DNA of 64,000 nucleotides, taken from contig CM073193.1 in NCBI GenBank assembly GCA_037042915.1, positions 8,494,001 to 8,558,000 on the forward strand. Reading direction: 5' to 3'. This DNA comes from Auricularia sp. M13. Lineage: Eukaryota > Basidiomycota > Agaricomycetes > Auriculariales > Auriculariaceae. Below the pieces are notes generated by a model. It did no database searches. It had not been told where the DNA came from and was given only the letters and a program-made list of their open reading frames with translations. A program made the translations under genes and the position numbers. Below, in pieces: positions 15,560-59,232 of the stretch (positions are counted from its first letter, which is position 1; each line of letters opens with the position of its first letter).

Positions 15560-18500
15560 ATGCGGCGCCTCGATGTCCCATGTTTTGACAAGGTGTTTGC
15601 TGCACCCCTCTCCAAGGTCGCTTCACCTCCGACTCAGCTTGAAAGCGCTCTCAAGGCCGATCCAACGTCGTCGCCGCCTTCACCGATGTTGGCCGCTTCA
15701 GCGTCCCCTACAACTACTGAGGCCGGCCTGGGCCTGGCGGAAGTAGCGCCCGCGCTTCCAGGAGGACAGAGAGATGAACCGAGTAGCTCTGGCTTTCCGC
15801 GCGAGACCGACGCCCCGCAGGCCACTCCAGCTGTGCCCTTCGTGCCGACCTCTGCTCCACCACCGCCCGTCCATACCGCACCACCTGTTGCGGCGGATTC
15901 CAGTCGTCCAGGCGAGCACAAGACCACGGCGAAAGCTCGAGACGCCGCCAAGTGCCCCACGTGCAACAGCGGCGGAGACGAGAGCCGCAATCTTGTGATC
16001 TGCATCGATGGCACTTCGAACCAGTTTAGCATCAAGGTCTGTTCATATGCCTGCTTTTTCCGCCTTCTGATAATGTCTTCCAGAATACGAATGTCGTCGA
16101 ACTTTACAGTCGCCTTAAAAGGAACAAGAAGCAATTCACATTCTACGACAGCGGCATTGGAACGTACGCGAAGCCGAGCTACATATCCTGGAGCTATATC
16201 AAGCAGGTCGGCGCGAACAAGTTAGACCTTATGTTTGCCCTGTATGCCGTCAGTCGCTGGTTAATTTCATCTAATTCTGAGTCTCCACTAGCCGATTCGA
16301 AAAGATCATCATGAGCGCATACAGATGGCTCGTAGACAACTACCAGGAAGGCGATCGCATCTACATGTTCGGTTCGTTTCCTTCTCCAATATTGCAGTAT
16401 CCCTCCTTAGGCTACCATAGGTTTCTCCCGCGGCGCTTATCAAGTTCGAGCGCTGGCGGCAATGCTCGACACGGTCTGTCCAATCTGTTCTTACCGCACG
16501 TCAATACTTATGCATCAATAGGTCGGGCTCCTTGAAAAAGGAAACGAAGACCAGATTCCATTGTGAGTATTGGTGCGGGTGTCACGTAGGGATCACTGAT
16601 ACTCATTGCCTCAGTGCATACGAACTGTTCGCTGCAGGCGAATCCCGCTCTTCCCACAAACGGGCGGGCATTTTCCAGTGTCTATACAGTACGATCAAGC
16701 CCGTCAAATCCGTTGCTACCGTCATGGGCCGCTCTCTTCGCAACGGCGCCTCCAGATCTTTCAAGTTCATTGTTCCTGACCAGAAAAGCCAAAGCCCGTA
16801 AACTGCTCGGGCTACAGCCGATTTTTCCACATCCCGAGCAGACGCCTCCCCCACCACAGGTCCCAGATGATCAGACACTACAAGAGCACTTCAAGGAAAC
16901 GTTTTCCCGTACCGTCAATGTCCACTTTGTCGGAGTATGGTACGTACCGACTTGATACAGGTTGTTCAACCTTTATTGATAACAGCTAGGGATACGGTCT
17001 CCTCTGTTGGCTTCATCCGTGGCAAGACCTTGCCGGGCACGACCGACGGCATGCGCCATGTCTGTTTCTTCCGCCACGCTCTCGCCATGCACGAATATCG
17101 CGTTAAGTTCCTGCCCGAATACGTCAACGGCGGCAATGGGCCAGACCCTGCATCTTGCGGCGGTAACCTTCCGCACACTAAGGAATGCTGGTTCATCGGA
17201 TCTCACTCGGATATGTGAGTGATCTCCCTCGTCATACTTGCTCATCTGAACCTTGCACTCACAGAGGTGGCGGAAACATGGTTAATACAAAGCTCCAGAC
17301 GTTTGGACCGGCGCTTCGCTGGATGTCGTTCGAAGCTGTCCTCGCCGGGCTCCAAGTCAAAGAGGGGCCTCGAGAGTGGGAGAGTCCCGTGGTCTCCAAG
17401 TCAATGACATGGTACTATAGGATTATGGAGATCTTCCCCATCAAGAGATTATCCTACAAGACCAAGGATTCCTCGTCCTGGCACGTGCATCTCCTCTTGA
17501 GACCTCCTCGTAATTTACCGGTTTTGCTAGGTGGCCTCACTTCTGCTCGCAAAGGCGCATTCGGCCGAATCAGCTCATACACGAAACCGTCTTGAATGAG
17601 TGCGGAATAGAATTATCAGGCCTCCACGACAACTTCGAACTCGTCGACGGCAAGATCACCAACCGCCAGGAAAACGACGCTTATACATCAGCAAAGGCTC
17701 TTCTTGAAGTCCCAACCAACGACGCAGCATGGATAGACCGGCTGACAACATTGTGGGGTACAAGTAGGTTTTTGTTTTGGTTAAACGACACGATGTCTCA
17801 CGACAACCAGTACCGGGTCAGCAGTCGCTAATCGACCTCATGGATGACATCCTGGTTTACCTTGAGAAGAGTTGGCGGTCGCACCCGGCGGAAGACGCAG
17901 CTAGGGAGAACATTTGCTTGCTCCGGGACGCTCTTTTCTACGGTCCATCGATCGTGAAGCACAGAATGCAACCTTTGAGCCAGCTCCTCGGCATTCAGAC
18001 CACTGTTACGCACTGTGAGGCAGATTTGTTCATCCGAGATCGGTACTTATTAGCACACAGGGACGTATCCATTCGCACTTCGAGGTCACACCAGCGCTCT
18101 CAGCTCGGTCGCGTTTCTGTCCCCGCAGCTCGTCGTGTCCGGCTCGTGGGATAACACCCTTCGCATGTGGAATATCGAAACAGGAGAAGCCGTCGGTGAC
18201 CCGTTGACGGGGCACACCTACGCGATCAACTGTGTTGCTGTCTCACCGAACGGCAGTCTCGTCGCATCTGGCTCTGATGACGGTACCGTACGTACTTGGA
18301 GGTTTGACGCCGGAAAACTCGTCGCCGGAGGGCTTGTCATACGAGCGGACGGCATGCAGCATGTCTTTTCAGTTGCATTCTCACCCGATGGATCGCGGAT
18401 TGTTTCTGGCTCTGGAGACAGAGCTCTCCGTATATGGGATGCTGAGACGGGACAGCAGGTCGGAAACGCAATGGAAGGGCATGATGGTTGGGTACGGTCC

Positions 18501-18980
18501 GTCGCATTCTCCCCGGACGGTGCACGCATTGTGTCCGGCTCAGCCGACCGGACCGTGCGATTATGGGACGCTAGGACATTTCAACCTCTCGGTGACCCTC
18601 TGATCGGACACACGCACCATGTGCGCTCAGTTGCATTCTCCCCGGACGGCGTCTCCATTGCTTCTGGCAGTAACGACAAAACGGTCCGAATCTGGAACTC
18701 AAACACTCGCGAGTTGATGCCCACACTGGTGGGGCATTCCCACTGGGTCCTGTCCGTCGCATTCTCACCCAGCGGACGACACGTCGCATCAGCTTCATGG
18801 GACGGCACTGTGCGCATCTGGGATGTCGTCAACGGAGAGGCGGTCGGCGTGCTCAAGGGACACACCAACATTGTTCGTTCGGTCGCGTTTTCTCCAGACG
18901 GTACACGGATAGCGTCGGGCTCGGAAGACGAGACTGTACGCATTTGGGACCGCATTCCTGTATCATCCACGGAGACGTGA
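15560..18980 (+). CDS. DUF2235 hydrolase - WD40 fusion, copy 1
   Basis: Order of parts: a Pro/Ser/Thr-rich disordered N-terminus of about 130 residues, a short CPTCNSGG element, the DUF2235 domain, a ~150-residue linker, and a seven-repeat WD40 propeller. Catalytic motifs of the family are present: LVICIDGTSNQF, the nucleophile elbow GFSRGA (near 16422), WDTVSSV and FIGSHSDIGGG. DUF2235 is the alpha/beta-hydrolase fold of bacterial Tle1 phospholipases. The start ATG at 15560 lies inside a CCCATAAATGC block that in copies 3 and 5 is upstream promoter sequence; here the frame stays open from it. The linker near 16.68-16.78 kb needs an extra intron, and the donor at ~17480 is GC rather than GT. 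This copy is the most diverged in the linker. Stop 18978..18980. Expected to be cytosolic (no signal peptide). Confidence 0.82.
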
Positions 18981-19566: not shown

Positions 19567-20340
19567 CTGGTCGAACGGACGGGTGTCGGCGAAACACGAC
19601 TCCTAGACCTCGTTGAGGGCGCGCTCCGCCGTCGCGTCGTCCGGGCAGTTTGGGTATCTTTTTAGCAGAGTAGTGCTCGTCGTCTTGCACGGGCCTTTTC
19701 GACGTGAGCAAGGGATAAACTGTTCAAATGAGAAAGGAACGACTCGCCTGGAATTGTTTCGTTATTCTAAAGTTTCCCCCGGTCAATTTCGCGGCCGAAT
19801 CCACAGTCGCCGCTCAAGCTTGCCGCGCGAATCTAAGGAGTTCAGAGCGAGAACATCAGGATGCGGGTAGCCACACACAAGTCGCATTGCGGGACGCACC
19901 TCAGAGCAAGCGACATGTCGCAAATTGTACCAATCCATCTTGAAGCGACGATGATCGAACAAACGAATCAGTTCATGCGCAAGCGTATCTTCGATATGAT
20001 TCTTGCTCATGAATCGATTCTGGCAAAGTAATATCGTGCCCGTAGGCCTGCCAAACCCCTCAACGCGCGCGGCGTCGCACGGCGCACTAGGGTATGCGGG
20101 TTGGAGACAGCACAGCCCGTGAGCGCTAGGTACTTGCGCAGGGATACAACGAGCGGGTTAGAGTGCATCAGGTCCTTCTTCCCGCACACACGCGCGCGTT
20201 CGCTGCGCGCAACGTCTCCGTCGACAGCGGCGCATCTTCGGCCGGCGCGTTCGCTAGGATGGTGTCCGTGTATTGGCGCAAGCGCGTGAAGGCCGCGTCG
20301 CGCGTCGTAGTCGTCGTTGGCGACGGCGGCGGAGGCGAGG
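19567..20340 (-). pseudogene. ATP23: ATP23-type metalloprotease, copy 1, inactivated
   Basis: ATP23 is a zinc metalloprotease of the mitochondrial intermembrane space that processes Atp6 and aids F0 assembly. The copy shows the family core: KDLMHSNPLVVSLRKYLALTG, then DTLAHELIRLFDH, KMDWYNLRHVACSEVR and a C-terminal NEV.ESCFADTRPFDQ. Two lesions are visible. The second zinc-binding His of HEXXH is Arg (codon 19965..19963, HELIR). The conserved Trp in NEVWESC is a TAG stop (19605..19603). The N-terminal frame (DAAFTRLRQYTDT) is better kept than in copies 2 and 4. It is convergent with the hydrolase gene. Right of it lies a 2.19-kb insertion that separates it from its usual neighbour, the carrier relic. 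Confidence 0.82.
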
Positions 20341-23990: not shown

Positions 23991-24000
23991 ATTGCCAGAT
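23810..24000 (+). pseudogene. 5' fragment of an F-box gene, copy A
   Basis: From the ATG at 23810 the frame reads MSTQLQIAPMHPRLGYGTFR, then AFILDESLAAQRNDKSAPWI and SFERPRLDMHH. It follows the first ~65 codons of the F-box gene at 3724 (YSTFRAFILDHILAALGNDG, SFEQLVSNMHY). It stops just before the F-box itself. The similarity ends where the minus-strand RSRPASP gene is cut off, so 24.0 kb is a rearrangement junction. Confidence 0.75.
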
Positions 24001-27917: not shown

Positions 27918-30900
27918 ATGTCCCGTCCTGCTTCACCTCTGCCGGAGGATGGCCCCCGAGCGGATCCCATGCCATCCGCGCCTCCACCCACGTCGACTGA
28001 GCCCGCATTCTCGCGGTCTGCGCAACTTATTGCAGCATCTGCGCGCGCTGTTCCGTCCGTCCCGACCGCTGCTCCGGCGCCGCCCATCGCTATTTCAACA
28101 CCGGCTGCAACACCGGCTGCAACACTACGAGGTCGTTCGGGCGAGCGGAAAACCACGGAGGCAGCTTCTGACCCCGGGAAATGTCCAACGTGCAAGGGTG
28201 GTGGCCGTCGATCTCGTAACCTCGTGGTCTGCATCGACGGCACGTCGAACCAGTTTAGCAAGAAGGTCCGTCAATGATGTTCAGTATAACTTGGATCGCG
28301 CTGAGTTACTTTCCCAGAATACCAATGTCGTCGAGCTTTACAGCCGTCTGATCAAAGACGAGAATCAACTCACGTTCTACAATAGCGGCATCGGCACATA
28401 CGCCGAGCCGTCCTGGAAATCCTGGAGCTATCGCAAGCAGGTCTTCATGAACATGCTCGACCTCATGTTTGCCCTGTACGTCGCCAGCCACCGATTAATT
28501 GCTCCTGACCCTTCCTAGTCGATTGGAGAAGATTATCATCAGCGCGTATGCTTGGCTTGTAGACAACTACGAGGAGGGAGACCGTATCTTTTTATTTGGT
28601 TGGTTTGCTCCGCGGTCTACTGAGTATCCTACTGAAGACGTCAAAGGGTTTTCGCGCGGGGCTTATCAAGTTCGAGCTCTCGCGGCTATGCTTGACATCG
28701 TTCGTCTTGTTCATTCGCACGTCATATGCGTCGAACTCACCCGGACTATAGGTTGGACTTCTGCACAAGGGCAATCGCGACCAGATCCCCTTGTGAGCTC
28801 CACCCTTTTTCAATTAACTGCAATGCTCAACGACGTAGCGCATTCGAGTTGTACGCTGCGTCCGACCGGGACCGGCAGCCGCAGCTTCTCGCCCCGGCTG
28901 TCAACGCCTTGTCACAACTCCGCGAAAGCGCGCCGTCGGTCACGACAGATCCTTCGACCGAATCACTGGCAGATATCCGCGAGTCGACATCGAGATGTCT
29001 GCCATCGCTACGTGGTGCTTTCAATACGATGTCAGCGGGCAGCGCCCGCGTGTCCAACGGCCTTCGCAGTGCTGTATCCAAAGTTCGCTCTGCCACCGCG
29101 GGCGTTCAGATCCTGGCGCCGGTTCGTGCGAAGCTTTCTCAGTGCATCAGTCTTGTCCCGCGCCCTGGCCTGGGGGCACCTGCTCGCAAATTCCGTCTCC
29201 CGCAGGCGCAGGCACAAGCTGGAGAAACCTCGCCTGATACTGATTCACCTGAGATCACAATGCAAGAGCGCTTCAAGGCAACTTTCTCCAGAGATGTCAA
29301 GGCGCATTTCCTCGGCGCATGGTTCGTTCAGTTAGAGTACGGATATTCTAGCTTTTGTTGACCGCATACAGGGACACAGTCTCGTCCGTTCGCTTGATTC
29401 GTGGCAGTACATTGCCCGGTACAACGGACGGCATGGGGACTGTCTGCTTCTTCCGTCACGCGCTTGCTATGCACGAATATCGTGTCAAATTCCTGCCAGA
29501 ATACGCCAACGGTGGTAACGGACCAGACGAAAAAGCCGCAAATAGCCACAATAACATGCCTCCGCATACTAAGGAGGTTTGGTTCATTGGATCTCACTCG
29601 GATATGTGAGTTTCCTTGTATCTTTCCTCATATTCCCGAGTCTCTGAACGTGCCTGATGGACAGCGGCGGAGGAAGCACGGTGAATACTGAACTCGACAA
29701 ATTCGGCCCTGCGCTGCGATGGATGTCGTTTGAGGCTGGGCTTGCTGGGCTAAGGATAAAGCCCGGTCCCCGACAATGGGAAGAGCAGACCTTGGTAACA
29801 GACTCGATGGCATGTTATTATAAACCCATGGAGTGGCTGCCCGTCAAGAGACTAACGTACGCCGACAAGAAATCTCTGACGCTTTGGTAAGTACTGTAGT
29901 CCGCATCCGGAATGTTCAAGCCCTCAATTGTATATGCAGGCGGCCTCATCGATACTCCGAACGCGTTGTACGACCCAATCAGCTCATCCACGAAACATAC
30001 TTGAAGGAAACTGGAACGACGATTGCTGATCTTCAAACCGAAATTGGCTTCGAGATTAAAATCGAAAAGGATGCATATACCGATGCGCAAGCGCTGCTCT
30101 CGGTTCCACGAGACCAACCATCCAGGAATGACTGGCTTCAGCAGTTACAGATTCTGCAGGAATCAGGTGCGGGCGAATGTCGTGATTGAACTGCACGCAG
30201 CCTTAACATTAGAAACAGAACCCGGCCTTCAGTCGCTATTGGACCTGGAGCGAGATATTTGGCTTGCATTAGCCAGATCAGTTCCTAGCTATCCAGAGCA
30301 TGGGAGGGAGCTCCGTCCACTTGAGAATGCGCTTGTGTGCCGCGGCTCAAATGAAGTGGATTCAACTCGGCGCCTGAGCGAGGTATTCGAAACTAGTGAC
30401 CAGGACACGTACTGTGAGCCAGACGTGCGTACTACGAGCTATGAACTCACATACACACAGGGACGTATCCCTTCCCACTTCGAGGTCACACCCTACCTGT
30501 CAGCTCGGTCGCGTTTCTGACCTCGCAGCTCGTCGTGTCCGGCTCGTGGGATAACACCCTTCGCATGTGGAATATCGAAACGGGAGAAGCCGTCGGTGAC
30601 CCGTTGACGGGGCACACCGACTCGATCAACTGTGTCGCTGTCTCACCGAACGGCAGTCTCGTCGCATCTGGCTCTTATGACAGTACCATCCGCACTTGGA
30701 GGTTTGACGCCGGAAAACTCGTCGGCGGAGGGCTTGTCATACGAGCGGACGGCATGGACCATGTCTTTTCAGTTGCGTTCTCACCCGATGGATCGCGGAT
30801 TGTTTCTGGCTCTGGTGACGGAGCTCTCCGCATGTGGGACGCTGCAACGGGACGGCAGGTTGGAAACGCAATGGAAGGGCATGATGCTTGGGTATTTTCC

Positions 30901-31383
30901 GTCGCATTCTCTCCGGACGGTGCACGCATTGCGTCCGGCTCAGCCGACCGGACCGTGCGATTATGGGACGCTAGGACATTTCAACCTCTCGGTGACCCTC
31001 TGATCGGACACACGGACTACGTGCGCTCAGTTGCATTCTCCCCGGACGGCGTCTCCATCGCTTCTGGCAGCGACGACGCAACGATCCGAATCTGGAACTC
31101 AAACGCTCGCGAGCTGATGCACATACTGGCCGGGCATTCCAGTTTGGTCTGGTCAGTCGCATTCTCACCGAGCGGACGGCACATCGCATCAGCTTCTTTA
31201 GACGATACAGTGCGCATATGGGATGTCGTCAGCCGAGAGACGGTCAGCGTGCTCAAGGGACACACCAGCCTTGTCTATTCGGTCGCATTTTCTCCGGACG
31301 GCACGCGGATGGCGTCGGGCTCGCGGGACGATACTGTACGCATTTGGGACCGCATTCCTGTCTCATCTACGGACGCGACGTGA
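27918..31383 (+). CDS. DUF2235 hydrolase - WD40 fusion, copy 2
   Basis: The start is ATG 27918 (MSRPASPLPEDGPRADPMPS). The disordered N-terminus leads to KCPTCKGGG and NLVVCIDGTSNQFSKK. The hydrolase core then reads through GT-AG introns: FYNSGIGTYAEPSW, YAWLVDNYEEGDRIFLFG, GFSRGAYQVRALAAML (nucleophile Ser), VGLLHKGNRDQIPL, the variable linker, WDTVSSVRLI, CFFRHALAMHEYRVKFLPEY and FIGSHSDIGGG. A helical linker (HETYLKETG..., LLDLERDIWLALA) joins seven WD40 repeats of ~42 residues ending ..VRIWDRIPVSST. Layout matches the 11-exon model traced for copy 5, and I found no stop or frame break. DUF2235 proteins of known activity (bacterial Tle1) are phospholipases; the substrate here is unknown. 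The WD40 part presumably recognises a protein ligand. Confidence 0.87.
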
Positions 31384-31930: not shown

Positions 31931-32664
31931 TTAGAAGGAGAAAAGACGAGGGCGACGACGGCCTATGCGAACCTGGTCGAACGGGCGGGTGTCGGCAAAA
32001 CACGACTCCCAGACCTCGTTTAGGGCGCGCTCCGCCGTCGCGTCGTCCGGGCAGTTTGGGTGGCCTTTGAGCGAGAGCAGCGCTCGTCGTCTTACGCAGG
32101 CCTTTTCGACGTGAGCAAAGGAATAACTTTCAGATAAGAAAGGAATGACTTGCCTGGTGCTGTTTTGTTATCCTGAAGTTTCCGCGATCTATTTCGCGTC
32201 CGAATCTACAGTCGCCGCTCAAACTCGCCGCGCGAATCTACGGGGAAAACTTCATGAGAATGCGGGCAGCGCTGTCGGGCGAGTTGTGGACTGACCTCAG
32301 AGCAAGCGACATGCCGCAAATTGTACCAATCCACCTTAAACCGACAATGGTCGAACATATGTATCAGTTCATGCGCAAGTGTATCTTCCATGTGTTTCTT
32401 GTTCATAAACCGGTCCTGGTAAAGTAATATCGTGCCCGTAGGCGGGCCAAACCCCCCAGCGCGCGCGGCGTCACACGGTACACGTAGGATATGCGGGTGG
32501 GAGACAGCGCAGCCCGTGAGCGCCAGGTGCTTGCGCAGGAAAACGACGAGCAGCAACGAGTGCATGAGGTCCTTCTTCCAGCGCTCGCAGCGCGCGTTCT
32601 GCGCGCGCAACGTCTCGGCCGACGGCGCTCCTGTCGCGCCTTCAGCCGGCGCGCTCGCGGTCAT
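31931..32664 (-). CDS. ATP23: ATP23-type mitochondrial metalloprotease, copy 2, the only complete one
   Basis: Exons 32664..32296, 32237..32154 and 32101..31931 give 207 residues. The protein has the family N-terminal C/W...LRKHLALTG and PCDAARAGGFGP blocks, the zinc site HELIH in DTLAHELIHMFDHCRF, DWYNLRHVACSE, IRAASLSGDCRFGREI, KQHQACVRRRALLSLKGHPN and NEVWESCFADTRPFDQV. ATP23 processes the mitochondrial Atp6 precursor and helps F0 assembly. Intron 2 starts with GC (GCAAGT). The ATG at 32664 is used because the upstream coding frame (KKAFTRWPTHT) is lost by a frame change, so ~40 ancestral N-terminal residues are missing. A few extra residues (IGRRRPRLFSF) follow the usual end. The gene is convergent with hydrolase copy 2. 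Confidence 0.85.
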
Positions 32665-37488: not shown

Positions 37489-40400
37489 ATGTCGCGTTCA
37501 CCGTCGCCCCAGCTGCAAACCGCTCTCCACGCTGATCCGACGTCACCTGCGCCTCCGCCAACGTTTATCAAGGCTCCATCGTCCGTTCCCGCTGCCGAAA
37601 CTGAGTTGGTAGCTCCGGCAGACGGAGCGCCGGGGCTCTCAGGAGGACGGAGGGAAGCGACGAGCACCTCAGACTCTATGCGCGACACCGACGATGTGCG
37701 GCTCACTCCTGCTTATGCTTCTTAAAGTGTACATATATTATTTCCCACTAAAATGGGGGTGTCACACGAAATTTGGTGTCTCTCACCTGTATGAAGTGTG
37801 GGCACATCATCTGGGATGTGTGGACACACTCCACCCAGATGGAGGACAGACTTAGTCAGCAGTGCCAATTCTCCCATTGGAGTGCCGACACTCCATCAAG
37901 GTGCCGAATCTCCCATCAAGGTGCCGAATCTCCCATCAAGGTGCCGACACACTTTCAGCTGGTGGAACACCAGATACCCTCACCTCCCAGAACTGCTCCA
38001 AGTACTGGGAAATGGTTGGGGAACCTATAAAGAGTTCATTTCTACCTTTATTTCGAATTTATTTAAAACTTTATTTTTCCTAAATAGGCAATTTGGACCC
38101 TGAGGAGGCCTCCTGAGTATGCTCCCCAACCATTCCCAGTACTTGGAGCAGTTCTGGGAGGTGAGGGTATCTGGTGTTCCACCAGCTGAAAGTGTGTCGG
38201 CACCTTGATGGGAGATTCGGCACCTTGATGGGAGATTCGGCACCTTGATGGAGTGTCGGCACTCCAATGGGAGAATTGGCACTGCTGACTAAGTCTGTCC
38301 TCCATCTGGGTGGAGTGTGTCCACACATCCCAGATGATGTGCCCACACTTCATACAGGTGAGAGACACCAAATTTCGTGTGACACCCCCATTTTAGTGGG
38401 AAATAATATATGTACACTTTAAGAAGCATACCTGCTGCGTCCGTCATCCCGTCTGAGCCGGCCGCTGCTCCATTGCCGCCCGTTCATACTGCAGCACCGG
38501 CCGAGAAAGAACCCGGTCTTTCAGGCGAGCGGAAGATTACGGCGGACGCATCAGATCCTCGCGTATGTCCCAAGTGCAGGAGTGGTGGCGGAAACTCTCG
38601 GAATCTTGTGGTCTGCATCGATGGCACTTCAAACCAGTTCAACGATAAGGTGCGCATAGCTTTCTCATATTGAGGCTGTCAAGCCGACTTTCTGCCTTTT
38701 AGAACACAAACGTCGTCGAGCTCTACAGCCGCCTCATTAAGGACGATAGGCAGTTGACGTTCTACAACAGCGGCATTGCCACATACGCCGAGCCGTACTG
38801 GAAGTCCTGGAGTTATTACCAGCAGGTCTTACTCAATATTCTAGACCTCATGTTTGCCCTGTACGTCGCCAGTCACCGTCCGAGCTTTCCTGACCCCTCC
38901 AAGCCAATTGGAAAATATCATCAAGAGTGCATATGCTTGGCTTGTCGACAACTACCGGGATGGGGACCGCATCTTCTTGTTCGGTTCGTTCCAGCTTTAG
39001 GGGCGACTCGCCTTCGTGCGCGGCTCAATTAAGGACAGGTTTCTCGCGCGGCGCGTATCAAGTTCGAGCGCTCGCGGCGATGCTCGATAGAGTTCGTCTT
39101 GTTTCTTACTTTGTTACTCGCGTCGATAACACGTTTGAACTACAGGTTGGACTGCTACACAAAGGCAATCAAGACCAGATCCCCTTGTGAGCCTTGATCT
39201 TTTGAAGCAAATGTGATGCTCAATCTTGTAGCGCATTCGAACTATATGCTGCACCCGACCGGGAGGAGCCCACCGCAGCTGCAGATACGCCCTCACAGCC
39301 CACGGAGAGCCCCGCGGAGGACTCAGCGACGCCGTCGGTCGCGACAAAGCCCCCGACGCCAGAAGAGCGCGAGGCAACGTCGTCTTTTCTACATTCGCTG
39401 CGTAGTTCTTTTGGAAAGCTGTCAGCAAGCGCTGGGCGCCTATTTGGAGGTCTTCGAAAGGCTGTCTCCAGCTTCTGCGCACCTGCTGTTGCTGCAATTC
39501 CAGCCTGGGTCTCACGAACTAGGACAACCGTTGGTTCGAAACTCTCGCACTGGGCGAGAAATGTCCCACGCTTTGCCCCCGAGCCTCCTGCGCGCATATT
39601 TCGTCGTCCGCAGCCGCAGGCGCGCGTTGGAGAAGCGGCATCTGCTACGATCAAACAGAAACAACAGCGCTTCAAGGAGACTTTCTCGCGCGACGTCAAG
39701 GTCCATTATCTCGGCGCATGGTGCGTTATAATAGAGTAGAAATGATCTGACTTTGATTCGTTCCTTCCAGGGACACAGTCTCGTCCGTTGGACTCGTCCG
39801 GGACAAGACTTTGCCCGGTACGACTAACGGAATGAACAGTGTCTGTTTCTTCCGCCACGCGCTCGCGATGCACGAATATCGCGTCAAATTCCTGCCCGAA
39901 TACGTCAACGGTGGCGCTGGGCCCGACGAAACTGCTTGCAGCGGCGAATCTCCGCATACAAAGGAGTGCTGGTTCATCGGTTCTCACTCGGATATGTGAG
40001 TGTCTGGTTCAGGCTCCGCGTCATCTCTTGGACCCGGTTTGAATGTGTCCTTTAAACAGTGGAGGTGGAAACACCATGAATACTGAACTTGACAAGTTCG
40101 GCCCCGCCCTGCGATGGATGTCGTTCGAGGCTGTTCTGGCAGGGCTGAGAATAAAGCCAGGTCCTCGGCTGTGGGAGAAGCCCGTGGTGACCGACTCAAT
40201 GACCTGGTTATACAGGCCGATGGAGTGGGCGCCCATCACAAGATTATCCTACATTGACGCTAACTCTCTCGTACGCTGGTAAGTCCATCACATCCAAAGC
40301 TCTCATACCTGTCTCATATCTATAGGCTGCCTCATCGATATTCCGAACGCGTTCTACAGCCCAATCAGCTGATCCACGAGACATACTTCAAAGAAACCAA

Positions 40401-41766
40401 AACCTCCATTGAGCAGCTTCGCATAAAGTTCAAATTCTCGATTAACACGGAGAACGATGCCTATACCAACGCGCAGGCACTTCTTTCGATTCCACGCGAT
40501 GCGAAGTTCATGGACGACTGGCTGAAGCGTTTTAAGACGCTGCAGGAGACGGGTGCGGGCACATGTCATGATTTATCCGCTCATAGTCTCAACATAACGA
40601 CCAGGACCCGGTCGCCAATCGCTATTGGACCTTGAGGCTGAGATATGGCGTGCACTTGCGATTTCGGCTCGGGGAGCTCCAGAACTCAACGAGCAGCTAC
40701 GCCGACTCGAGCACCACCTCATATGCCACTCTCTAACTGAGGTGCCTGCAGCTACGCGGCTAAGCGAGATATTTGGGACCAGCGACAAAGACACACACTG
40801 TGAGCCAGGGGTTTGTACTGCAAGGCATGAACTCACATACACGCAGGGACGTATCCCTTCGCTCTTCGAGGTCACACCGGACCTGTCAGCTCGGTCGCGT
40901 TTCTGACCTCGCAGCTCGTCGTGTCCGGCTCATACGATCAGACTCTTCGGGTGTGGAATATCGAAACCGGAGAAGCTGTCGGTGACCCGTTGACGGGGCA
41001 CACCGACTGGATCTACTGTGTTGCTGTCTCACCGGACGGCAGTCTCGTCGCATCTGCATCTCAGGACGGAATCATCCGCACTTGGGGGTTTGACGCCGGA
41101 AAACTCGTCGGAGGGCTCGTCATACGAACAGACGGCATGGACACGGTTTTCTCAGTAGCGTTCTCACCCGATGGATCGCGGATTGTTTCTAACTCTGCTG
41201 ACGGAGCTCTGCGCATTTGGGACGCTGCAACGGGACAGCAGGTCGGAAACACAATGGAAGGGCATGATCGTTCGGTACAGTCGGTCGCATTCTCCCCGGA
41301 CGGTGCACGCATTGCGTCCGGCTCATACGACCGGACCGTGCGATTATGGGACGCTAGGACGTTTCAACCTCTCGGTGACCCTCTGACCGGACACACGAGC
41401 GCTGTGGTTTCAGTAACATTCTCCCCGGACGGCGTCTCCATCGCTTCTGTCAGCATCGACGAAACGGTCCGAATCTGGAACTCAAACACTCGCCAGCTGA
41501 TGCACACACTGGTGGGGCATTCCCGCTGGGTCACGTCCGTCGCATTCTCACCCAGCAGACGACACGTCGCATCAGCTTCTATGGACAACACAGTGCGCAT
41601 ATGGGATTGCGGCACGGGAGAGACGGTCGGCGTGCTCAAGGGACACACCAACTGGGTCTATTCAGTCGCGTTTTCTCCAGACGGCACGCGGATAGCGTCG
41701 GGCTCGTGGGACAAGACTGTACGCATTTGGGACCGCATTCCTATATTATCTACGGACGCGACGTGA
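37489..41766 (+). CDS. DUF2235 hydrolase - WD40 fusion, copy 3, exon 1 split by a foldback element
   Basis: The original start (MSRSPSPQLQTALHADPTSP at 37489) runs 75 codons and enters the element at 37714, where TATGCTTCTTAA stops it. Downstream, an ATG inside the right terminal repeat (38410) opens MYTLRSI in frame with PAASVIPSE..., CPKCRSGGG and NLVVCIDGTSNQF. The rest has the same exon layout as copy 5: NTNVVELYSRLIKDDRQ, GFSRGAYQVRALAAML, WDTVSSVGLV, FIGSHSDIGGG, linker, and seven WD40 repeats to the stop at 41764..41766. So a shortened protein lacking ~75 disordered residues can still be made if transcription starts within or is carried through the element. Catalytic residues are intact. 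WD40 residues at variable positions differ from every other copy. Confidence 0.8.
37714..38430. mobile_element. 717-bp foldback (long inverted repeat) element with 6-bp target duplication
   Basis: The left arm 37714..38022 (309 bases) and right arm 38123..38430 (308 bases) are near-perfect reverse complements. The ends read TATGCTTCTTAAAGTGTACA. A 100-base AT-rich centre separates the arms. The direct repeat CCTGCT flanks it (37708..37713 and 38431..38436), and copy 5 has the uninterrupted site (CCCCTGCTGCG), which proves insertion. Each arm contains tandem AATCTCCCATCAAGGTGCCG units. No protein is encoded; the mirror-image open frames on the two strands are the same peptide read from the two arms. 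It is a non-autonomous element, probably mobilised by a transposase elsewhere. Confidence 0.92.
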
Positions 41767-42299: not shown

Positions 42300-43105
42300 C
42301 CTGCGAACCTGGTCAAACGGGCGGGTGTCAGCGAAACACGACTCCCATACTTCGTTGAGGGCACGCTCCGCCATCGCGTCGTCTGGGCAATTCGGGTGGC
42401 CTTTGAGCGAGAGAAGCGCTCGTCGCCTTACGCACGCCTGCGGTAAGCAAGGGATTTATGATTAATATATCTCGCGGTGGGAGTGCGAGAGGGAGGGCGC
42501 GACACACCTGGTTTTGTTATATTAGAATTTCCCCGGTCAATTTTGCGGCCGCATCTACAGTCGTCGCTCAAGCTCGCCGTGCGAATACATAGTCCAAGGT
42601 AAAAGGGTTAGAACGCGGGCAGCGCTGCAAATTCATAGTAAGACGCACCTCGGAGCAAGCGACATGCCGCAGATTGTACCAATCCATCTTGAAGTGACAA
42701 TGGTCCAACATATAAATAAGTTCGTGCGCTAGAGTATTCATCATATGTTTCTTGCTCATGAACCGGTTTGGCAGAGCAATATCGTGCCCGTAGGCAGGCC
42801 AAATCCGCGGGCGCGCGCAGTGTCGCACGGTTCACACAAGATATATGGGTTCGAGACGGCGCAGCCGGTGAGCGCGAGATGCTTGCGCAGGAAGACGACG
42901 AGCGGCGACGAGTGCATGTGGACCTTCCAGCGCTCGCAGCGCGCGTTCTGCGCGCACAACGTCTCGACACACGGCGGCGCCTCTTCGGCCGGCGCGCTCG
43001 CGGGCGGATCGCTCCCATGTGCACGCGCCAGCGCGTGAAGGCCGCGTCGCGCGTCATTGTCGTTGTCAGCGGCGGCGGCGGCGGCAACGCGGACGTCACG
43101 AGAAA
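42300..43105 (-). pseudogene. ATP23: ATP23-type metalloprotease, copy 3, inactivated
   Basis: The family blocks are present: ASAPAEEAPPCVETL, LVVFLRKHLALTGCAVSNPY, NRFMSKKHMMNTLAHEL, KMDWYNLRHVACSEVR and, at the low-coordinate end, ALNEVWESCFADTRPFDQV. The zinc motif is destroyed: HELIY replaces HELIH (codon 42714..42712). A one-base frame change lies just before NRFMSKK (near 42775), where the first part ends in LLCQTGS and a stop. The second intron here keeps a normal GT donor (GTGTGT), unlike the GC donors of the other copies. Divergent from carrier relic 3. Confidence 0.8.
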
Positions 43106-46297: not shown

Positions 46298-49200
46298 ATG
46301 TCGCGTCCAGCTTCGCCTCTGCCGGAAAACGCCCCCCAAGCTGATCTCATGCCAGCCGCGCCTCCACCCGCGTCCACTGAGCCTGCATCCCCACGGTCTG
46401 CACCACCTATCGCAGCCGACTCTGTGGCTGACATCTCAACAGTGTTTCCGGCGAACGGAGGGGCGCGACGTCCAGCTCTAGTCATCTGCATGAAACCGAC
46501 GGCCCAGCTACGCGCGCTGTTCCATCCGTCTCAACCGCTGCTCCGGCGCCGCCCATCGATACTGCAGCACCGCAACCGGGTCGTTCTGGCGAGCCAAAGA
46601 CCACGGAGGCAGCTTCTGACCCCGGGAAATGTCCAACGTGCAAGGGCGGCGGCCGTAAGGGTCGTAACCTCGTCGTCTGCATCGACGGCACGTCGAATCA
46701 GTTCAGCAAGAAGGTCCGTCATGATGGTCAGCATAAATTGGACCGCGCTGAGTTGCTTCCCCAGAATACCAATGTCGTCGAGCTTTACAGCCGTCTGATC
46801 AAAGACGAGAATCAACTCACGTTCTACAACAGCGGCATAGGCACATATGCTGAGCCGTCCTGGAAATCCTGGAGCTATCGCAAGCAGGTCTTTATGAACA
46901 TGCTCGACCTCATGTTTGCCCTGTACGTCGCCAGCCACCCATTGATTTCTCCTGACCCCTCCTAGTCGATTGGAGAAGATCATTATCAGCGCATACGCCT
47001 GGCTTGTAGACAACTACGAGGAAGGAGACCGTATTTTTTTATTTGGTTGGTTTACTGCTGGTTTTATAAAGTATATTGCTGAAGACATCAAAGGCTTTTC
47101 GCGCGGGGCTTATCAAGTTCGAGCTCTCGCGGCTATGCTTGACATCGTTCGTCTTGTTCGTTCGCACGTCATATGCGTCAAACTCACCCGGACTATAGGT
47201 TGGACTCCTGCACAAGGGCAATCGCGACCAGATCCCCTTGTGAGCTCTACCCTTTCTCAATTAACTGCAGTGATCAACGACGTAGCGCATTTGAATTGTA
47301 CGCTGCGTCCGACCGGGAAAGGCGGCCGCATCCTCTCGCCTCAGCTGTCCACGCCATCGCCGGAGATAGCACGCCGTCGGTCACGACAGTTCCTTCGACC
47401 GAATCACCAGATATCCGCGAGTCGACATCGAGATGTTTGCCATCGCTACGTGGTGCTTTCAATACGATGTCAGCAGGCAGCGCCCGCATGTCTAAGGGCC
47501 TTCGAAACGCTGTTTCCAAAGTTCGCTCTGCCGCCGCGGGTGTTCAAATCCTGGCGCCGGTTCGTGCGAAGCTTTCTCAGTGCATCAGTCTTGTCCCGCG
47601 CCCTGGCCTGGGGGCACCTGCTCGCAAATTCCGTCTCCCGCAGGCGCAGGCACAAGCTGGAGAAACCTCGCCTAATACTGATTCGCCTGAGATCACAATG
47701 CAAGAGCGCTTCAAGGCAACTTTCTCCAGAGATGTCAAGGCGCATTTCCTCGGCGCATGGTTCGTAGACAGAGTACGGATGTTCTGCCTTTCATTGACCG
47801 CACACAGGGACACAGTCTCGTCCGTTCGCTTGATTCGTGGTAGTACTTTGCCCGGTACAACGGACGGCATGGGGACTGTCTGCTTCTTCCGTCACGCGCT
47901 CGCTATGCATGAATATCGTGTCAAATTCCTACCAGAATACGCCAACGGCGGCAGCGGACCAGAAGAACAAGCCGCAAATAGCCACAATAACATGCCTCCG
48001 CATACTAAGGAGGTATGGTTCATTGGATCTCACTCGGATATGTGAGCTTCCTTGCGTCCTTCCTCATATTCCCGAGTCTCTGAACGTGCCTGATGGACAG
48101 CGGCGGAGGAAGCACGGTGAATACTGAACTCGACAAATTCGGCCCTGCGCTGCGATGGATGTCGTTTGAGGCTGGGCTTGCTGGGCTAAGGATAAAGCCC
48201 GGTCCACGACAATGGGAAGAGCAGACCTTGGTAACAGACTCGATGGCGTGGTATTATAAACCCATGGAGTGGCTGCCGGTCAAGAGACTAACGTACGCCG
48301 ACAAGAAATCTCTGACGCTTTGGTAAGTACTGTAGTCGGCATCCGGAATGTTCAAGCCCTCAATTGTATATGCAGGCGGCCTCATCGATACTCCGAACGC
48401 GTTGTACGACCCAATCAGCTCATCCACGAAACATACTTGAAGGAAACTGGAACGACGATTGATGATCTTCAAACCGAAATTGGCTTCGAGATTAAAATCG
48501 AAAAGGATGCATATACCGATGCGCAAGCGCTGCTCTCGGTCCCACGAGACCAACCATCCAGGAATGACTGGCTTCAGCAGTTACAGATTCTGCAGGAATC
48601 AGGTGCGGGCGAATGTCGTGATTGAACTGCACGCAGCCTTAACATTAGAAACAGAACCCGGCCTTCAGTCGCTATTGGACCTGGAGCGAGATATTTGGCT
48701 TGCATTAGCCAGATCAGTTCCTAGCTATCCAGAGCATGGGAGGGAGCTCCGTCCACTTGAGAATGCGCTTGTGTGCCGCGGCTCAAATGAAGTGGATTCA
48801 ACTCGGCGCCTGAGCGAGGTATTCGGAACTAGTGACCAGGACACGTACTGTGAGCCAGACGTGCGTACCACGAGCTATGAACTCACATACACACAGGGAC
48901 GTATCCCTTCCCACTTCGGGGCCACACCGGACTTGTCAGCTCGGTCGCTTTTCTGACTCCGCAGCTCGTCGTGTCCGGCTCTTGGGATCGCACTCTTCGC
49001 ATTTGGAATATCGATACCGGAGAAGCCGTCGGTGACCCGTTGACGGGGCACACCGACTTGATCTACCGTGTTGCTGTCTCACCGGACGGCAGTCTCGTCG
49101 CATCTGGCTCTAATGACGGTACCATCCACACTTGGAAGTATGACGCCGGAAAACTCGTCAGAGGTCTCGTCATACGAGCAGACGGCATGTACATGGTTCT

Positions 49201-49813
49201 CTCAGTTGCGTTCTCGCCCGATGGACTGAGGATTGTTTCTTACTCTGCTGACGGAGCTTTCCGCACGTGGGACGCTGCAACGGGACAGCAGGTCGGAAAC
49301 GCAATGGAAGGACATGATGGTCCTGTACGGTCGGTCGCATTCTCCCCGGACGGTGCACGCATTGCATCCGGCTCACTCGACCGGACCGTGCGATTATGGG
49401 ACGCGAGGACATTTCAACCTCTCGGTGACCCTCTGACGGGACACACGGACTACGTGCGCTCAGTTGCATTCTCCCCGGACGGCGTCTCCATCGCATCTGG
49501 CAGCCGCGACGAAACGATCCGAATCTGGAACTCAAACACTCGCGACTTGATGCATATACTGGCCGGGCATTCCAGTTGGGTCTGGTCAGTCGCATTCTCA
49601 CCCAGCGGACGACACATCGCCTCAGGTTCTGCGGACGCCACTGTGCGCATATGGGATGCAGTCAGCGGAGAGGCGGTGGGCGTGCTCAAGGGACACAGAG
49701 GTGTCCTTTCGGTCGCGTTTTCTCCGGACGGCACGCGGATAGCGTCGGGCTCGAATGACGAGACTGTACGTATTTGGGACCGCATCCCTGTGTCATCCAT
49801 GGATACGACGTGA
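46298..49813 (+). CDS. DUF2235 hydrolase - WD40 fusion, copy 4, frame break in the N-terminus
   Basis: ATG 46298 (MSRPASPLPENAPQADLMPA) matches copy 2, but an 89-base insertion near 46405-46500 throws the N-terminal frame out of register with the catalytic domain. No GT-AG pair that I can find repairs it, and there is no in-frame ATG soon after. From KCPTCKGGGRKGRNLVVCID onward the gene reads like copy 2: AEPSWKSWSYRKQVF, EEGDRIFLFG, GFSRGAYQVRALAAML, LGAW..DTVSSVRLI, CFFRHALAMHEY, FIGSHSDIGGG, linker, and seven WD40 repeats to the stop at 49813. The last repeat is one residue shorter (GHRGVLSVAF). Between 47.9 and 48.9 kb it is almost identical to copy 2. It may be a recent pseudogene or start from an unrecognised exon. 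Confidence 0.72.
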
Positions 49814-50402: not shown

Positions 50403-51073
50403 TTAATTGAGGGCACGCTCCGCCGTGGCGTCGTCCGGGCAATTCGGGTGGCCTTTAAGCGACAGAAGTGCTCGTCTTCTTACGCATGCCTAAGCCGCAA
50501 GTCACGACGTCAGCATGGGATTGTGGAGAGTGAGATGTAGAAGGAAGGACGCGCCTGGTGCTGTTTTGTTATCCTGAAGTTTCCGCGATCTATTTCGCGT
50601 CCGAATCTGCAGTCTCCGCTCAAGCTTGCAGCGCGAATCTACATAGCCCAAGGCAAAAAAAGCTTAAAACGAGGGCAGCGCTGCAAATTCATAGTAATAC
50701 GCACCTCGGAGCAAGCGACATGCCGCAAATTGTACCAATCCATCTTAAACCGACAATGGTCAAACATATGTATCAGTTCATGCGCAAGTGTATCTTCCAT
50801 GTGTTTCTTGTTCATAAACCGGTCCTGGTAAAGTAATATCGTGCCCGTAGGCGGGCCAAACCCCCCAGCGCGCGCGGCGTCACACGGTACACGTAGGATA
50901 TGCGGGTGGAAGACAGCGCAGCCCGTGAGCGCCAGGTGCTTGCGCAGGAAAACGACGAGCAGCAACGAGTGCATGAGGTCCTTCTTCCAGCGCTCGCAGC
51001 GCGCGTTCTGCGCGCGCAACGTCTCGGCCGACGGCGCTCCTGTCGCGCCTTCAGCCGGCGCGCTCGCGGTCAT
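50403..51073 (-). pseudogene. ATP23: ATP23-type metalloprotease, copy 4, C-terminally truncated
   Basis: Exons 51073..50705, 50638..50555 and 50489..50403 give 179 residues. The active site HELIH and all N-terminal and middle blocks match copy 2 almost exactly (DHCRFKMDWYNLRHVACSE, IRAASLSGDCRFGREI). In the last exon four extra bases (TTAA type) after GAGCGTGCCCTCAA create the stop in ALN* at 50405..50403 and remove NEVWESCFADTRPFDQV. The loss covers a conserved C-terminal segment, so activity is doubtful though the zinc site is intact. Intron 2 starts GC (GCGCGT). The same start problem as copy 2 applies. Confidence 0.75.
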
Positions 51074-51915: not shown

Positions 51916-52078
51916 CGCACTGGTGCTCGGGATACAGTTGCCCGCTGGCGGCAGACGAGCGACGCGGTAACGCCAAGGTGTGCTGGTTTTGAGCGTGCCA
52001 AGTCCCAACTGGACTCTAAGCGATCGTATCGACGCTGAGCGACGCTCCATGTCTCCCGCGTCCCGACTCTGTCTTCGC

Positions 52079-52250
52079 ATGTCGACCCAGCCGCAGATTG
52101 CGCCCATGCACCCTTGCCTTCTGGGCCTTCATTCTCGACGAAAGTCTGGCTGCGCAGAGGAACGATAAGTCCGCGCCGTGGATATGGCCGAGTGCCAACT
52201 CACAGGCAGCGTTCATTCCTATGAGCGACCCCGGTTGGACATGCACCAGA
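52079..52250 (+). pseudogene. 5' fragment of an F-box gene, copy C
   Basis: It begins MSTQPQIAPMHP, then lacks the LGY.TF segment through a deletion of about 17 bases and continues AFILDESLAAQRNDKSAPWI. It ends at the same junction with the truncated RSRPASP gene. Confidence 0.68.
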
Positions 52251-55674: not shown

Positions 55675-58600
55675 ATGTCGCGTTCACCGTCGCCCCAGCT
55701 GCAAACCGCTCTCCACGCTGATCCGACGTCACCTGCGCCTCCGCCAACGTTTATCAAGGCTCCATCGTCCGTTCCCGCTGCCGAGACCGAGTCTGCAGCA
55801 CCGGCAGACGGAGCGCCGGGGCTCTCAGGAGGACGGAGCGAAACGACGAGCACCTCTAACTCTCTGCACGATAACGACGATGTGCGGGTCACCCCTGCTG
55901 CGTCCGTCATCCCGTCTGAGCCGGCCGCTGCTCCATTGCCGCCGGTGCATACTGCAGCACCGTCCGAGAAAGAACCCGGTCACTCAGGCGAGCGGAAGAT
56001 TACGACGGACGCATCAGATCCTCGCGTATGTCCCAAGTGCAGGAGTGGTGGCGGAAAATCTCGGAATCTTGTAGTCTGCATCGATGGCACTTCAAACCAG
56101 TTCAACGACAAGGTGCGCATAGCTTTCTCATATTGAGGCTGTCAAGTCGACTTTCTGTCTTTTAGAACACAAACGTTGTCGAGCTCTACAGCCGCCTCAT
56201 CAAGGACGATAGGCAGTTGACGTTCTACAACAGCGGCATCGCCACATACGCCGAGCCGTACTGGAAGTCCTGGAGTTATTACCAGCAGGTCTTACTCAAT
56301 ATTCTAGACCTCATGTTTGCCCTGTACGTCGCTAGTCACCGTCCGAGCTTTCCTGACCCCTCCAAGCCAATTGGAAAATATCATCAAGAGCGCATATGCT
56401 TGGCTTGTCGACAACTACCGGGATGGAGACCGCATCTTCTTGTTCGGTCCGTTCCAGCTTCGTGAGCGATCCACCTTCGTGCGCGGCTCAATTAAGGACA
56501 GGTTTCTCGCGCGGCGCGTATCAAGTTCGAGCGCTCGCGGCGATGCTCGACAGAGTTCGTCTTGTTTCTTACTCTGTTACTCGCGTCGATAACACGTTTG
56601 AACTACAGGTTGGACTGCTACACAAAGGCAATCAAGACCAGATCCCCTTGTGAGCCTTGATCTTTTGAAGCAAATGTGATGCTCAATCTTGTAGCGCATT
56701 CGAACTATATGCTGCACCCGACCGGGAGGAGCCCACCGCAGCTGCAGATACGCCCTCACAGCCCACGGAGAGCCCCGCGGAGGACTCAGCGACGCCGTCG
56801 GTCGCGACAAAGCCCCCGACGCCAGAAGAGCGCGAGGCAACGTCGTCTTTTCTACATTCGCTGCGTAGTTCTTTTGGAAAGCTGTCAGCAAGCGCTGGGC
56901 GCCTATTTGGAGGTCTTCGAAAGGCCGTCTCCAGCTTCTGCGCACCTGCTGTTGCTGCAATTCCAGCCTGGGTCTCACGAACTAGGACAACCGTTGGTTC
57001 GAAACTCTCGCACTGGGCGAGAAATGTCCCACGCTTTGCCCCCGAGCCTCCTGCGCGCATATTTCGTCATCCGCAGCCGCAGGCGCGCGTTGGAGAAGCG
57101 GCATCTGCTACGATCAAACAGAAACAACAGCGCTTCAAGGAGACTTTCTCGCGCGACGTCAAGGTCCATTATCTCGGCGCATGGTGCGTTATAATAGAGT
57201 AGAAATGATCTGACTTTGATTCGTTCCTTCCAGGGACACAGTCTCGTCCGTTGGACTCGTCCGGGACAAGACTTTGCCCGGTACGACTGACGGAATGAAC
57301 AGTGTCTGTTTCTTCCGCCACGCGCTCGCGATGCACGAATATCGCGTCAAATTCCTGCCCGAATACGTCAACGGTGGCGCTGGGCCCGACGAAACTGCTT
57401 GCAGCGGCGAATCTCCGCATACAAAGGAGTGCTGGTTCATCGGTTCTCACTCGGATATGTGAGTGTCTGGTTCAGGCTCCGCGTCATCTCTTGGACCCGG
57501 TTTGAATGTGTCCTTTAAACAGTGGAGGTGGAAACACCATGAATACTGAACTTGACAAGTTCGGCCCCGCCCTGCGATGGATGTCGTTCGAGGCTGTTCT
57601 GGCAGGGCTGAGAATAAAGCCAGGTCCTCGGCTGTGGGAGAAGCCCGTGGTGACCGACTCAATGACCTGGTTATACAGGCCGATGGAGTGGGCGCCCATC
57701 ACAAGATTATCCTACATTGACGCTAACTCTCTCGTACGCTGGTAAGTCCATCACATCCAAAGCTCTCATACCTATCTCATATCTATAGGCTGCCTCATCG
57801 ATATTCGGAACGCGTTCTACAGCCCAATCAGCTGATCCACGAGACATACTTCGAAGAAACCAAAACCTCCATTGAGCAGCTTCGCACAAAGTTCAAATTC
57901 TCGATTAACACGGAGAACGATGCGTATACCAACGCGCAGGCACTTCTTTCTATTCCACGCGATGCGAAGTTCATGGACGACTGGCTGAAGCGTTTTAAGA
58001 CGCTGCAGGAGACGGGTGCGGGCACATGTCATGATTTATCCGCTCATAGTCTCAACATAACGACCAGGACCCGGACGCCAATCGCTCTTGGACCTAGAGG
58101 CTGATATATGGCGAGCACTTGCGATTTCCGCTCAGGAAGCTCCAGAAATTAACGAGGAACTACGCGGGCTCGAGCACCGCCTCATATGCCACACTCTAAC
58201 TGAGGTGCCTGCAGCAACGCGGCTAAGCGAGATATTTGGGACCAGCGACAAAGTCACACACTGTGAGCCAGGCGTTTGTACTGCAAGGCATGAACTCACA
58301 TGCACGCAGGGACGTATCCCTTCGCTCTTCGAGGTCACACCCGACCTGTCAGCTCGGTTGCGTTTCTGACCTCGCAGCTCGTCGTGTCCGGCTCGTGGGA
58401 TGACACCCTTCGCATGTGGGATATCGAAACCGGAGAAGCCGTCGGTGGCCCTTTGACGGGACATACCGGCGGCGTCAACTGTGTTGCTGTCTCACCGAAC
58501 GGCAGTCTCGTCGCATCTGGCTCTGATGACGGTACCGTACGCACTTGGAGGTTTGACGCTGGAAGACTCGTCGCCGGAGGGCTTGTCATACGAGCGGACG

Positions 58601-59232
58601 GCATGCAGCATGTCTTTTCAGTTGCATTCTCACCCGATGGATCGCGGATTGTTTCTGGCTCTGCTGACGGAGCTCTGCGCATTTGGGACGCTGAAACGGG
58701 ACAGCAGGTCGGAAACGCAATGGAAGGGTATGTTGACTGGGTTCAGCCGGTCGCATTCTCCCCGGACGGTGCACGCATTGCATTCGGCTCAGGCGACTGC
58801 ACCGTGCGATTATGGGACGCTAGGACATTTCAACCTCTCGGTGACCCTCTGACCGGACACACAAACGGTGTGAATTCAGTTGCATTCTCCCCGAACGGAG
58901 TCTCCATCGCTTCTGGCAGCCGCGACGAAACGATCCGAGTCTGGAACTCAAACACTCGCCAGCTGATGCACACACTGGTGGGGCATTCCGACACGGTCTG
59001 GTCAGTCGCATTCTCACCCAGCGGACGACACGTCGCATCAGCTTCTATGGACAGCACAGTGCGCATATGGGATGCAGTCCGCGGAGAGGCGGTGGGCGTG
59101 CTCAAGGGACACACCCACTGGGTCTCATCGGTCGCGTTTTCCCCAGACGGCACGCGGATCGCGTCGGGTTCGCTTGACGAGACTGTACGCGTTTGGGACC
59201 GTATTCCTGTATCATCTACGGACGCGACGTGA
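55675..59232 (+). CDS. DUF2235 hydrolase - WD40 fusion, copy 5, complete reference copy
   Basis: Eleven exons join in frame: 55675..56112, 56166..56323, 56367..56446, 56502..56554, 56609..56649, 56695..57183, 57234..57458, 57523..57741, 57789..58015, 58068..58262 and 58310..59232, giving 1015 residues. Residues 1-~125 are Pro/Ser/Thr-rich; CPKCRSGGGKSRNLVVCIDG then opens DUF2235 (to about 600). The nucleophile Ser is in GFSRGA (codon 56507..56509), the acid in WDTVSSV and the His in GSHSDIGGG, the pattern of Tle1-type lipases. A ~150-residue segment inside the hydrolase (AFELYAAPDREEP... to KETFSRDV) is disordered and variable between copies. Seven WD40 repeats fill the last ~305 residues. 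No signal peptide, so cytosolic. I infer a ligand-sensing hydrolase. Confidence 0.92.

Follow-up and report, generated by a model that had tools for sequence, protein, structure and literature searches.

The HNWD proteins of Podospora anserina (HET-D, HET-E and HET-R) end in WD40 repeats of about 42 residues in which, according to Paoletti (2007), codons 7, 9, 25 and 27, which flank the conserved positions 8 and 26, are under strong positive selection and lie on the propeller's top face; Chevanne (2010) places the same four positions on the interaction face of the propeller. Here we describe a cluster of genes in the fungus Auricularia sp. M13 that fuse a DUF2235 (PF09994) hydrolase to a C-terminal WD40 propeller showing selection at the same four positions. 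Five of the genes lie in the window analysed, which is a stretch of 64,000 nucleotides (C1:8494001-8558000, where C1 is contig CM073193.1) of a genome comprising 52.1 Mb in 14 contigs. We propose, with a probability of roughly 0.7, that the array is a repertoire of intracellular effector–sensor receptors that lack a nucleotide-binding oligomerization domain (NOD).

The likeness to HNWD genes extends to the exchange of repeat sequence among family members; in the array this occurs within the same slot of the propeller and yields mosaic copies, in the group formed by the window and downstream genes. The array differs from HNWD genes in its Tle1-like hydrolase, in the lack of a NACHT or HET match (two N-terminal halves scanned), in repeats that are fixed to their slots and not internally homogenised, and in selection at an additional position, 6. 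Membership of the HNWD family or of the NOD-like receptors (NLRs) is ruled out by the absence of NOD/NACHT, the lack of a HET domain and a within-gene repeat identity of 46%.

By analogy, the nearest precedents are the hydrolase effectors of fungal NLRs, the repeat-fused proteases of gasdermin clusters and the hotspot WD40 proteins of Hu (2017). Fungal NLRs with sesB-like, patatin and other hydrolases (PMC4986451) share the combination of an N-terminal hydrolase effector and a C-terminal repeat sensor, but have a NOD (NACHT or NB-ARC). Proteases fused to ANK, TPR or WD40 repeats in fungal gasdermin clusters (PMC10197012) likewise place an effector enzyme beside repeat sensors, and only some are identified as NLRs; unlike the array, they carry a protease domain and form two-gene clusters, and the sections of that account drawn on here report neither a 28-copy array nor site-specific selection. 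In highly repetitive WD40 proteins of bacteria and fungi, repeat sites are mostly conserved while predicted interaction hotspots are diverse (Hu 2017, PMC5587647); the diversity of the array differs in lying between paralogues on one effector and in having been tested with codon models. Among the papers listed in searches of the open-access literature, none described DUF2235–WD40 receptors.

The DUF2235–WD40 array and its hydrolase half

An earlier note on this DNA had described a five-copy array. Five DUF2235–WD40 genes are indeed present in the window (W1–W5, Table 1), but the real cluster comprises 28 loci within C1:8.198-8.801 Mb, that is, about 0.6 Mb, and there are dispersed loci elsewhere. 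Genome-wide, at least 90 exon stretches match PF09994, the catalytic domain of Tle1-like phospholipases, and the majority fall on C1 at 8.19-8.81 Mb. DUF2235 matches outside the array lie at C2:1.51M (L041), C3:3.96M (L042) and C1:5.73M; L041 and L042 also possess WD40 repeats, with longer C-termini.

Loci are named U1–U10 upstream of the window, W1–W5 within it and D21–D33 downstream. They were modelled from the window, 200 kb upstream of it and 13 downstream gene stretches using a custom spliced protein-to-DNA aligner that accepts an intron only if it is at least 38 nt long, begins with GT or GC and ends in AG; the splice sites are therefore no independent support for the models. This gave 293 introns over the 28 loci (median 49 nt), with 10-12 short introns per model in a pattern that is similar among loci; the GC donors of nine of the 293 are possibly wrong, and the long 5' introns of D23 and D33 are doubtful. 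This richness in introns is in keeping with a basidiomycete. Twenty models are free of frame events, and one of these (D28) ends inside the propeller, leaving 19 of 28 complete modelled frames. The frame events in W1, U1, U3, U4, U6 and D25 are either unmodelled introns or true breaks. In D26 and D33 a stop codon precedes the hydrolase, in a stretch for which the start codon is uncertain; towards its C-terminal end D26 goes out of frame as well. By eye, the N-terminal halves of D26 (C1:8662540-8665927), D28 (8681951-8685155) and D30 (8734254-8737698) are near-identical and their propellers differ; the WD40 end is broken in D26 and D28. A WD40 match at C1:8711898-8713351, with a frame of 92 residues, stands beside a match to a peptidase of the M76 family with no DUF2235 match listed nearby, and is likely to be the remnant of a further array copy.

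The organisation of the genes is illustrated by W4, modelled at 946 residues: a leader rich in Pro and Ala comes first, then a CPxC motif and PF09994, which a linker joins to the seven WD40 repeats. In Pfam scans of the N-terminal halves of W4 and U2, PF09994 scored 234.9 and 245.6 bits (cut-off 27; E-values 1.5e-69 and 8.4e-73, respectively) and nothing else rose above cut-off, Rsbr_N being sub-threshold in U2. Neither half matched the HET domain or NACHT, and the 27 NACHT exon matches in the genome all lie outside the cluster; the lack of NACHT in the fusion genes, stated in the earlier note, is supported. A stretch of 598 N-terminal residues had no counterpart among PDB sequences in a phmmer search.

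All 28 copies contain the CPxC motif and GFSRG, the GxSxG nucleophile motif; the patterns GFSRGAYQVRALA, SHSD[IM]GGG and CIDGTSNQF are each found in 28 of 28 models and the W-Asp-T-SS pattern in 27, being missing from U4. We take the Asp, His and Ser motifs of the array copies to be the catalytic triad of Tle1-like serine hydrolases. The N-terminal half has a pN/pS (ratio of the proportions of nonsynonymous and synonymous differences) of 0.38 (19 copies). On its sequence, the DUF2235 half is a predicted Tle1-like serine hydrolase with conserved catalytic motifs. A scan of prokaryote genomes for relatives of the hydrolase returned one stand-alone protein, a 373-residue open reading frame (ORF) of Tahibacter aquaticus with 43% identity in the best segment; it shares the PF09994 catalytic domain and contains the stretches GFSRGAY, DTVSAIG and HSDVGGG. 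Unlike the array copies it has no Pfam WD40 match, the fungal proteins carrying in addition a CPxC leader, a linker and the propeller.

That the catalytic family takes its name from a bacterial type VI effector invites the idea of a weapon – a polymorphic-toxin-like enzyme, secreted or released, whose variable propeller binds targets in competitors. The leader of W4, judged by eye and with the start codon not established, is rich in Pro and Ala and shows no hydrophobic signal stretch, and we consider a weapon of this kind very unlikely.

Variable positions and selection in the propeller

Variation was studied in 26 of the 28 WD40 domains: D26 (frameshifted) and D28 (truncated) were dropped, while W1, U1, U3, U4, U6, D25 and D33, in which the frame event or stop lies upstream and the WD40 exon is open, were retained. 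Each of these 26 copies contains seven slot-specific repeats, and for all 182 of them the closest repeat in another gene occupies the same slot. The repeats had been called near-identical, which is apt for the same slot compared across copies (mean identity 78%) and not for repeats within one gene (mean 46%, maximum 67%; 26 genes). The array thus misses the internal identity of >85% at which high repeat conservation was set by Dyrka (2014, PMC4986451). On the scale given in Hu (2017, PMC5587647), where an internal identity of at least 0.7 is highly repetitive and 0.4-0.7 moderately so, it would count as moderately repetitive.

Positions were numbered such that the conserved V is 8; repeat 1 is one residue shorter, and its positions 24 and 26 were counted as 25 and 27 in later tests. 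Positions 7, 9, 25 and 27 were fixed beforehand from the HNWD papers, whereas position 6 was added after seeing the data. The register itself was deduced from the published pattern of selected pairs around conserved positions 8 and 26, not from an alignment with HET-E.

Mean entropy over the 26 domains is 2.4, 2.6, 2.1, 2.4 and 1.6 bits at positions 6, 7, 9, 25 and 27, respectively, and below 0.9 bits at all other positions up to 42 (it is 0.93 at position 46, which is present in repeat 2 only). In a permutation test of the HNWD positions chosen a priori, none of 20,000 permutations reached the observed difference (p = 5e-5). An even spread of variable sites over the repeats was looked for and is ruled out by this concentration at five positions. 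The earlier note had placed the differences between copies after GHT/GHS, before SVAF and at the x positions of SxDxT, within a constant framework, and had likened them to the HNWD sites. These places are positions 6, 7, 9, 25 and 27, exactly where entropy peaks, and by entropy and codon models alike they include the HNWD-selected four.

Both variability and selection are measured between paralogues of one genome. A codon model gave an omega (dN/dS) of 4.59 for the HNWD sites, 4.15 for position 6 and 0.32 for the framework; fixing omega at 1 for the HNWD sites costs 456 units of twice the log-likelihood difference (2dlnL), and with the two groups of genes taken apart the values are 4.99 and 4.17. 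When each repeat was given a separate tree, omega was 4.45 at the HNWD sites versus 0.36 (2dlnL = 344). A scan of 42 positions on the per-repeat trees found only 6, 7, 9, 25 and 27 above 1 (omega 5, 5, 3.5, 7 and 3.5, each the best-fitting value of a grid). In pairwise comparisons the HNWD sites have a pN/pS of 1.57 (bootstrap 1.20-2.16) among the window and downstream genes and 1.35 (1.01-1.98) among the upstream ones; in the framework it is 0.31-0.34. A value below 1 at the variable sites would have refuted the reading of the earlier note; dN/dS is above 1 there on whole-domain and per-repeat trees, and this rules out pure relaxation of constraint.

The WD40 exon of W4, modelled by AlphaFold2 with the five window copies as alignment, forms a propeller with a mean pLDDT (predicted local distance difference test) of 93.2. 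Its best structure matches are seven-bladed – the WD40 domain of Thermomonospora (5yzv) and designed propellers (7big) – with TM-scores (query) of 0.89-0.90. Mapping of the variable sites on a predicted propeller, as the earlier note had advised, shows that each of the 34 present in the W4 model belongs to a d-a loop, a b-c turn or the start of strand a. These elements make up the top of the propeller according to Paoletti (2007), and the placement on the top face rests on the secondary-structure elements together with that paper and not on model coordinates.

The 35-residue signatures formed by the variable sites are distinct in all 26 domains, with a minimum Hamming distance of 16, and the sites are enriched in Tyr (5.8 vs 0.3%), Trp (9.8 vs 2.6%) and also Asn. 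As 26 usable natural variants on one scaffold, the domains provide a test bed for the coding of propeller specificity. Diversification of the HNWD type has been described for NLRs; here these sites are again under selection, at an omega of about 4-5, on hydrolase–WD40 proteins that lack a NOD, which suggests that the propeller face is itself the recognition unit and connectable to other outputs.

Exchange between copies and the case for recognition

Thirteen genes of the window and downstream group have usable N-terminal halves. Their third-position distances in that half are hardly correlated with those in the WD40 framework (Mantel r 0.23, p 0.053). Within the N-terminal region one half follows the other closely (r 0.94); within the WD40 region it hardly does so (r 0.21). 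Just one of the 13 genes has the same nearest neighbour in both domains: W4, for example, is nearest to D21 by its N-terminal half and to D31 by its propeller. Identical tracts of WD40 DNA of up to 125 nt are common to genes whose N-terminal halves are more than 15% different in nucleotides, and the pairs sharing identical tracts include D29 and D31, whose N-terminal halves are 26.5% different. In close pairs the N-terminal pS is 0.04-0.08 and the WD40 pS about 0.15-0.20. The sensor half is thus reshuffled independently of the catalytic half in this group, a pattern consistent with a process in which ectopic conversion or recombination moves WD40 stretches from copy to copy and selection then acts on the face.

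We envisage that the seven-bladed C-terminal propeller would bind a ligand via its top face and that the N-terminal hydrolase would be inactive or diffuse until such binding; once activated, it would cleave phospholipids, with damaged membranes or a lipid signal as the outcome. Together, the 28 copies would constitute the repertoire. Purifying selection would keep the framework and the catalytic half, positive selection would diversify the binding face, and ectopic conversion or recombination would swap WD40 sequence so as to place new combinations on a conserved effector. Such proteins would act inside the cell, be regulated by the propeller and serve in self/non-self or parasite recognition, and the ligand could be conspecific (allorecognition) or foreign. 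The array would then be a candidate recognition system in a fungus belonging to a group, the basidiomycetes, in which the N-terminal domains of such receptors are sparsely annotated (Dyrka 2014, PMC4986451). The recognition family outlined in the earlier note is thus supported in part: the variable sites are concentrated, dN/dS exceeds 1 at them, they include the HNWD positions, and NACHT is absent. By architecture, and with repeats that are not internally homogenised, the array is no HNWD.

Several observations weigh against a recognition repertoire. There is no NOD that would account for switching. Over all pairs, pN/pS at the HNWD sites is just 1.10 (0.92-1.37), multiple hits raising pS there. 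Omega can be inflated by exchange between copies, for which one tree does not hold; even so, the per-repeat trees agree. Four-gamete incompatibilities are clustered in the N-terminal half too (p 0.003), if rarer there (0.20 of site pairs versus 0.48 in the WD40 region). The two halves correlate in the upstream group (6 usable copies; Mantel r 0.82), where the WD40 test is weak (p 0.07), and independent reshuffling is accordingly restricted to the window and downstream group. Finally, nine of the 28 models contain a frame event, stop or truncation.

Some of these observations would be expected if the expansion were neutral, with relaxed exposed loops and gene conversion in a tandem array generating apparent hypervariability without function. 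D26, D28 and D33 look broken or truncated, exchange between copies is evident, some of the M76 neighbours (see below) are only partly matched, and the all-pairs pN/pS does not differ from 1. A neutral process must nevertheless be reconciled with an omega well above 1 on whole-domain and per-repeat trees, with within-group pN/pS values of 1.57 and 1.35, and with the constraint evident in the framework (omega 0.32), in the N-terminal half (pN/pS 0.38, 19 copies) and in the 19 complete frames; we find it barely credible.

Seven other WD40 loci (L034–L040), at C1:346k-808k, C6:3.18M and C9:3.17M, were analysed. A protein-kinase match upstream of the WD40 repeats is above the Pfam cut-off in L036–L039 and weak, below cut-off, in L035 and L040; in L034 the two ORFs scanned gave no kinase match. 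The most variable positions over five repeats of the five loci on C1 (L034–L038) are 25, 9, 6, 7 and 27 (1.6-2.0 bits), the next being 42 (1.4 bits), and without L034 the order is 9, 25, 6, 42, 27, 2, 7. The kinase–WD40 genes on C1 thus lean, at the sequence level and less cleanly, towards the pattern of variable positions in the array. One may tentatively extend the recognition repertoire into an NLR-independent system in which a single diversifying propeller is coupled to several outputs (the phospholipase-like 28-copy array and dispersed kinase–WD40 genes), with effectors conserved and the repertoire renewed by ectopic exchange. If true, fungi would possess a modular recognition system that resembles antibodies and does without a NOD; with just four of the seven loci passing the kinase cut-off and variability less clean, the extension is less probable, and we regard it as somewhat doubtful.

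The leaning of WD40 genes with other N-terminal domains to the same positions indicates that the sensor is not bound to one output, and this also suits an explanation outside immunity: the copies might be adaptor enzymes for different endogenous proteins or membranes, with selection for new partners and not for non-self recognition. WD40 propellers are general interaction platforms, and selection on the top face demonstrates partner diversification alone. Yet 26 distinct signatures on a shared effector, together with reshuffling of the sensor, come closer to known recognition repertoires than to stable partner specialisation. Non-immune diversification therefore seems to us unlikely, and a recognition repertoire remains our preferred interpretation.

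Neighbourhood of the array

Within 1.1 kb downstream of 16 of the 18 window and downstream copies (the exceptions are D28 and D29) lies a convergent match to Peptidase_M76 (ATP23-like). All M76 exon matches found in the genome, at least 33 in an exon-wise search, fall at C1:8.51-8.80 Mb, some being partial or containing stops. These matches mark the duplicated unit, in which Peptidase_M76 is most likely a passenger, and the organism's ATP23 gene may lie inside the array. Pfam scans of 20 window ORFs outside the array genes gave only the M76 peptidase and an F-box-like domain above cut-off.

Table 1. Array genes, their WD40 coding stretches and adjacent peptidase matches in the window. Coordinates of the array copies are modelled spans with no start codon set.
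Feature	Position in window	Strand	Remarks
W1, DUF2235–WD40 gene	15803..18980	+	Spliced alignment; 10 introns in the model; reading frame interrupted once, near 16757 within the variable linker (genuine break or missed intron)
W1 seven-repeat WD40 coding stretch	18078..18977	+	Single exon
Peptidase_M76 match, convergent	19570..20085	-	Beside W1, within the duplicated unit
W2, DUF2235–WD40 gene	28038..31383	+	Spliced alignment; modelled frame open
W2 seven-repeat WD40 coding stretch	30478..31380	+	
Peptidase_M76 match, convergent	31976..32592	-	
W3, DUF2235–WD40 gene	38431..41766	+	Spliced alignment; modelled frame open
W3 seven-repeat WD40 coding stretch	40864..41763	+	
Peptidase_M76 match, convergent	42312..42941	-	
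W4, DUF2235–WD40 gene	46480..49813	+	Modelled frame open; Pfam PF09994 and WD40; possible start ATG upstream, at 46298
W4 seven-repeat WD40 coding stretch	48914..49810	+	Folded as a propeller by AlphaFold2
Peptidase_M76 match, convergent	50675..51001	-	
W5, DUF2235–WD40 gene	55864..59232	+	Spliced alignment; modelled frame open
W5 seven-repeat WD40 coding stretch	58327..59229	+	
Peptidase_M76 match, convergent	59780..60216	-	Stop codons in matched stretches (introns not modelled)

A second, GC-rich repeated block occurs between the genes, at window positions 22976-25333, 33149-35135, 51556-53579 and 62325-63217 (82-97% identity to the reference copy); no Pfam match was found in those of its ORFs that were scanned, on both strands. 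Directly upstream of W3, window positions 37714-38430 form an inverted repeat with arms of 307 nt that are 99% complementary and 103 nt apart. The F-box-like match belongs to a 589-residue ORF at window positions 3700-5469. Elsewhere in the genome, C10:3.02-3.38M holds nine NACHT exon matches in 0.36 Mb and WD40 exon matches as well.

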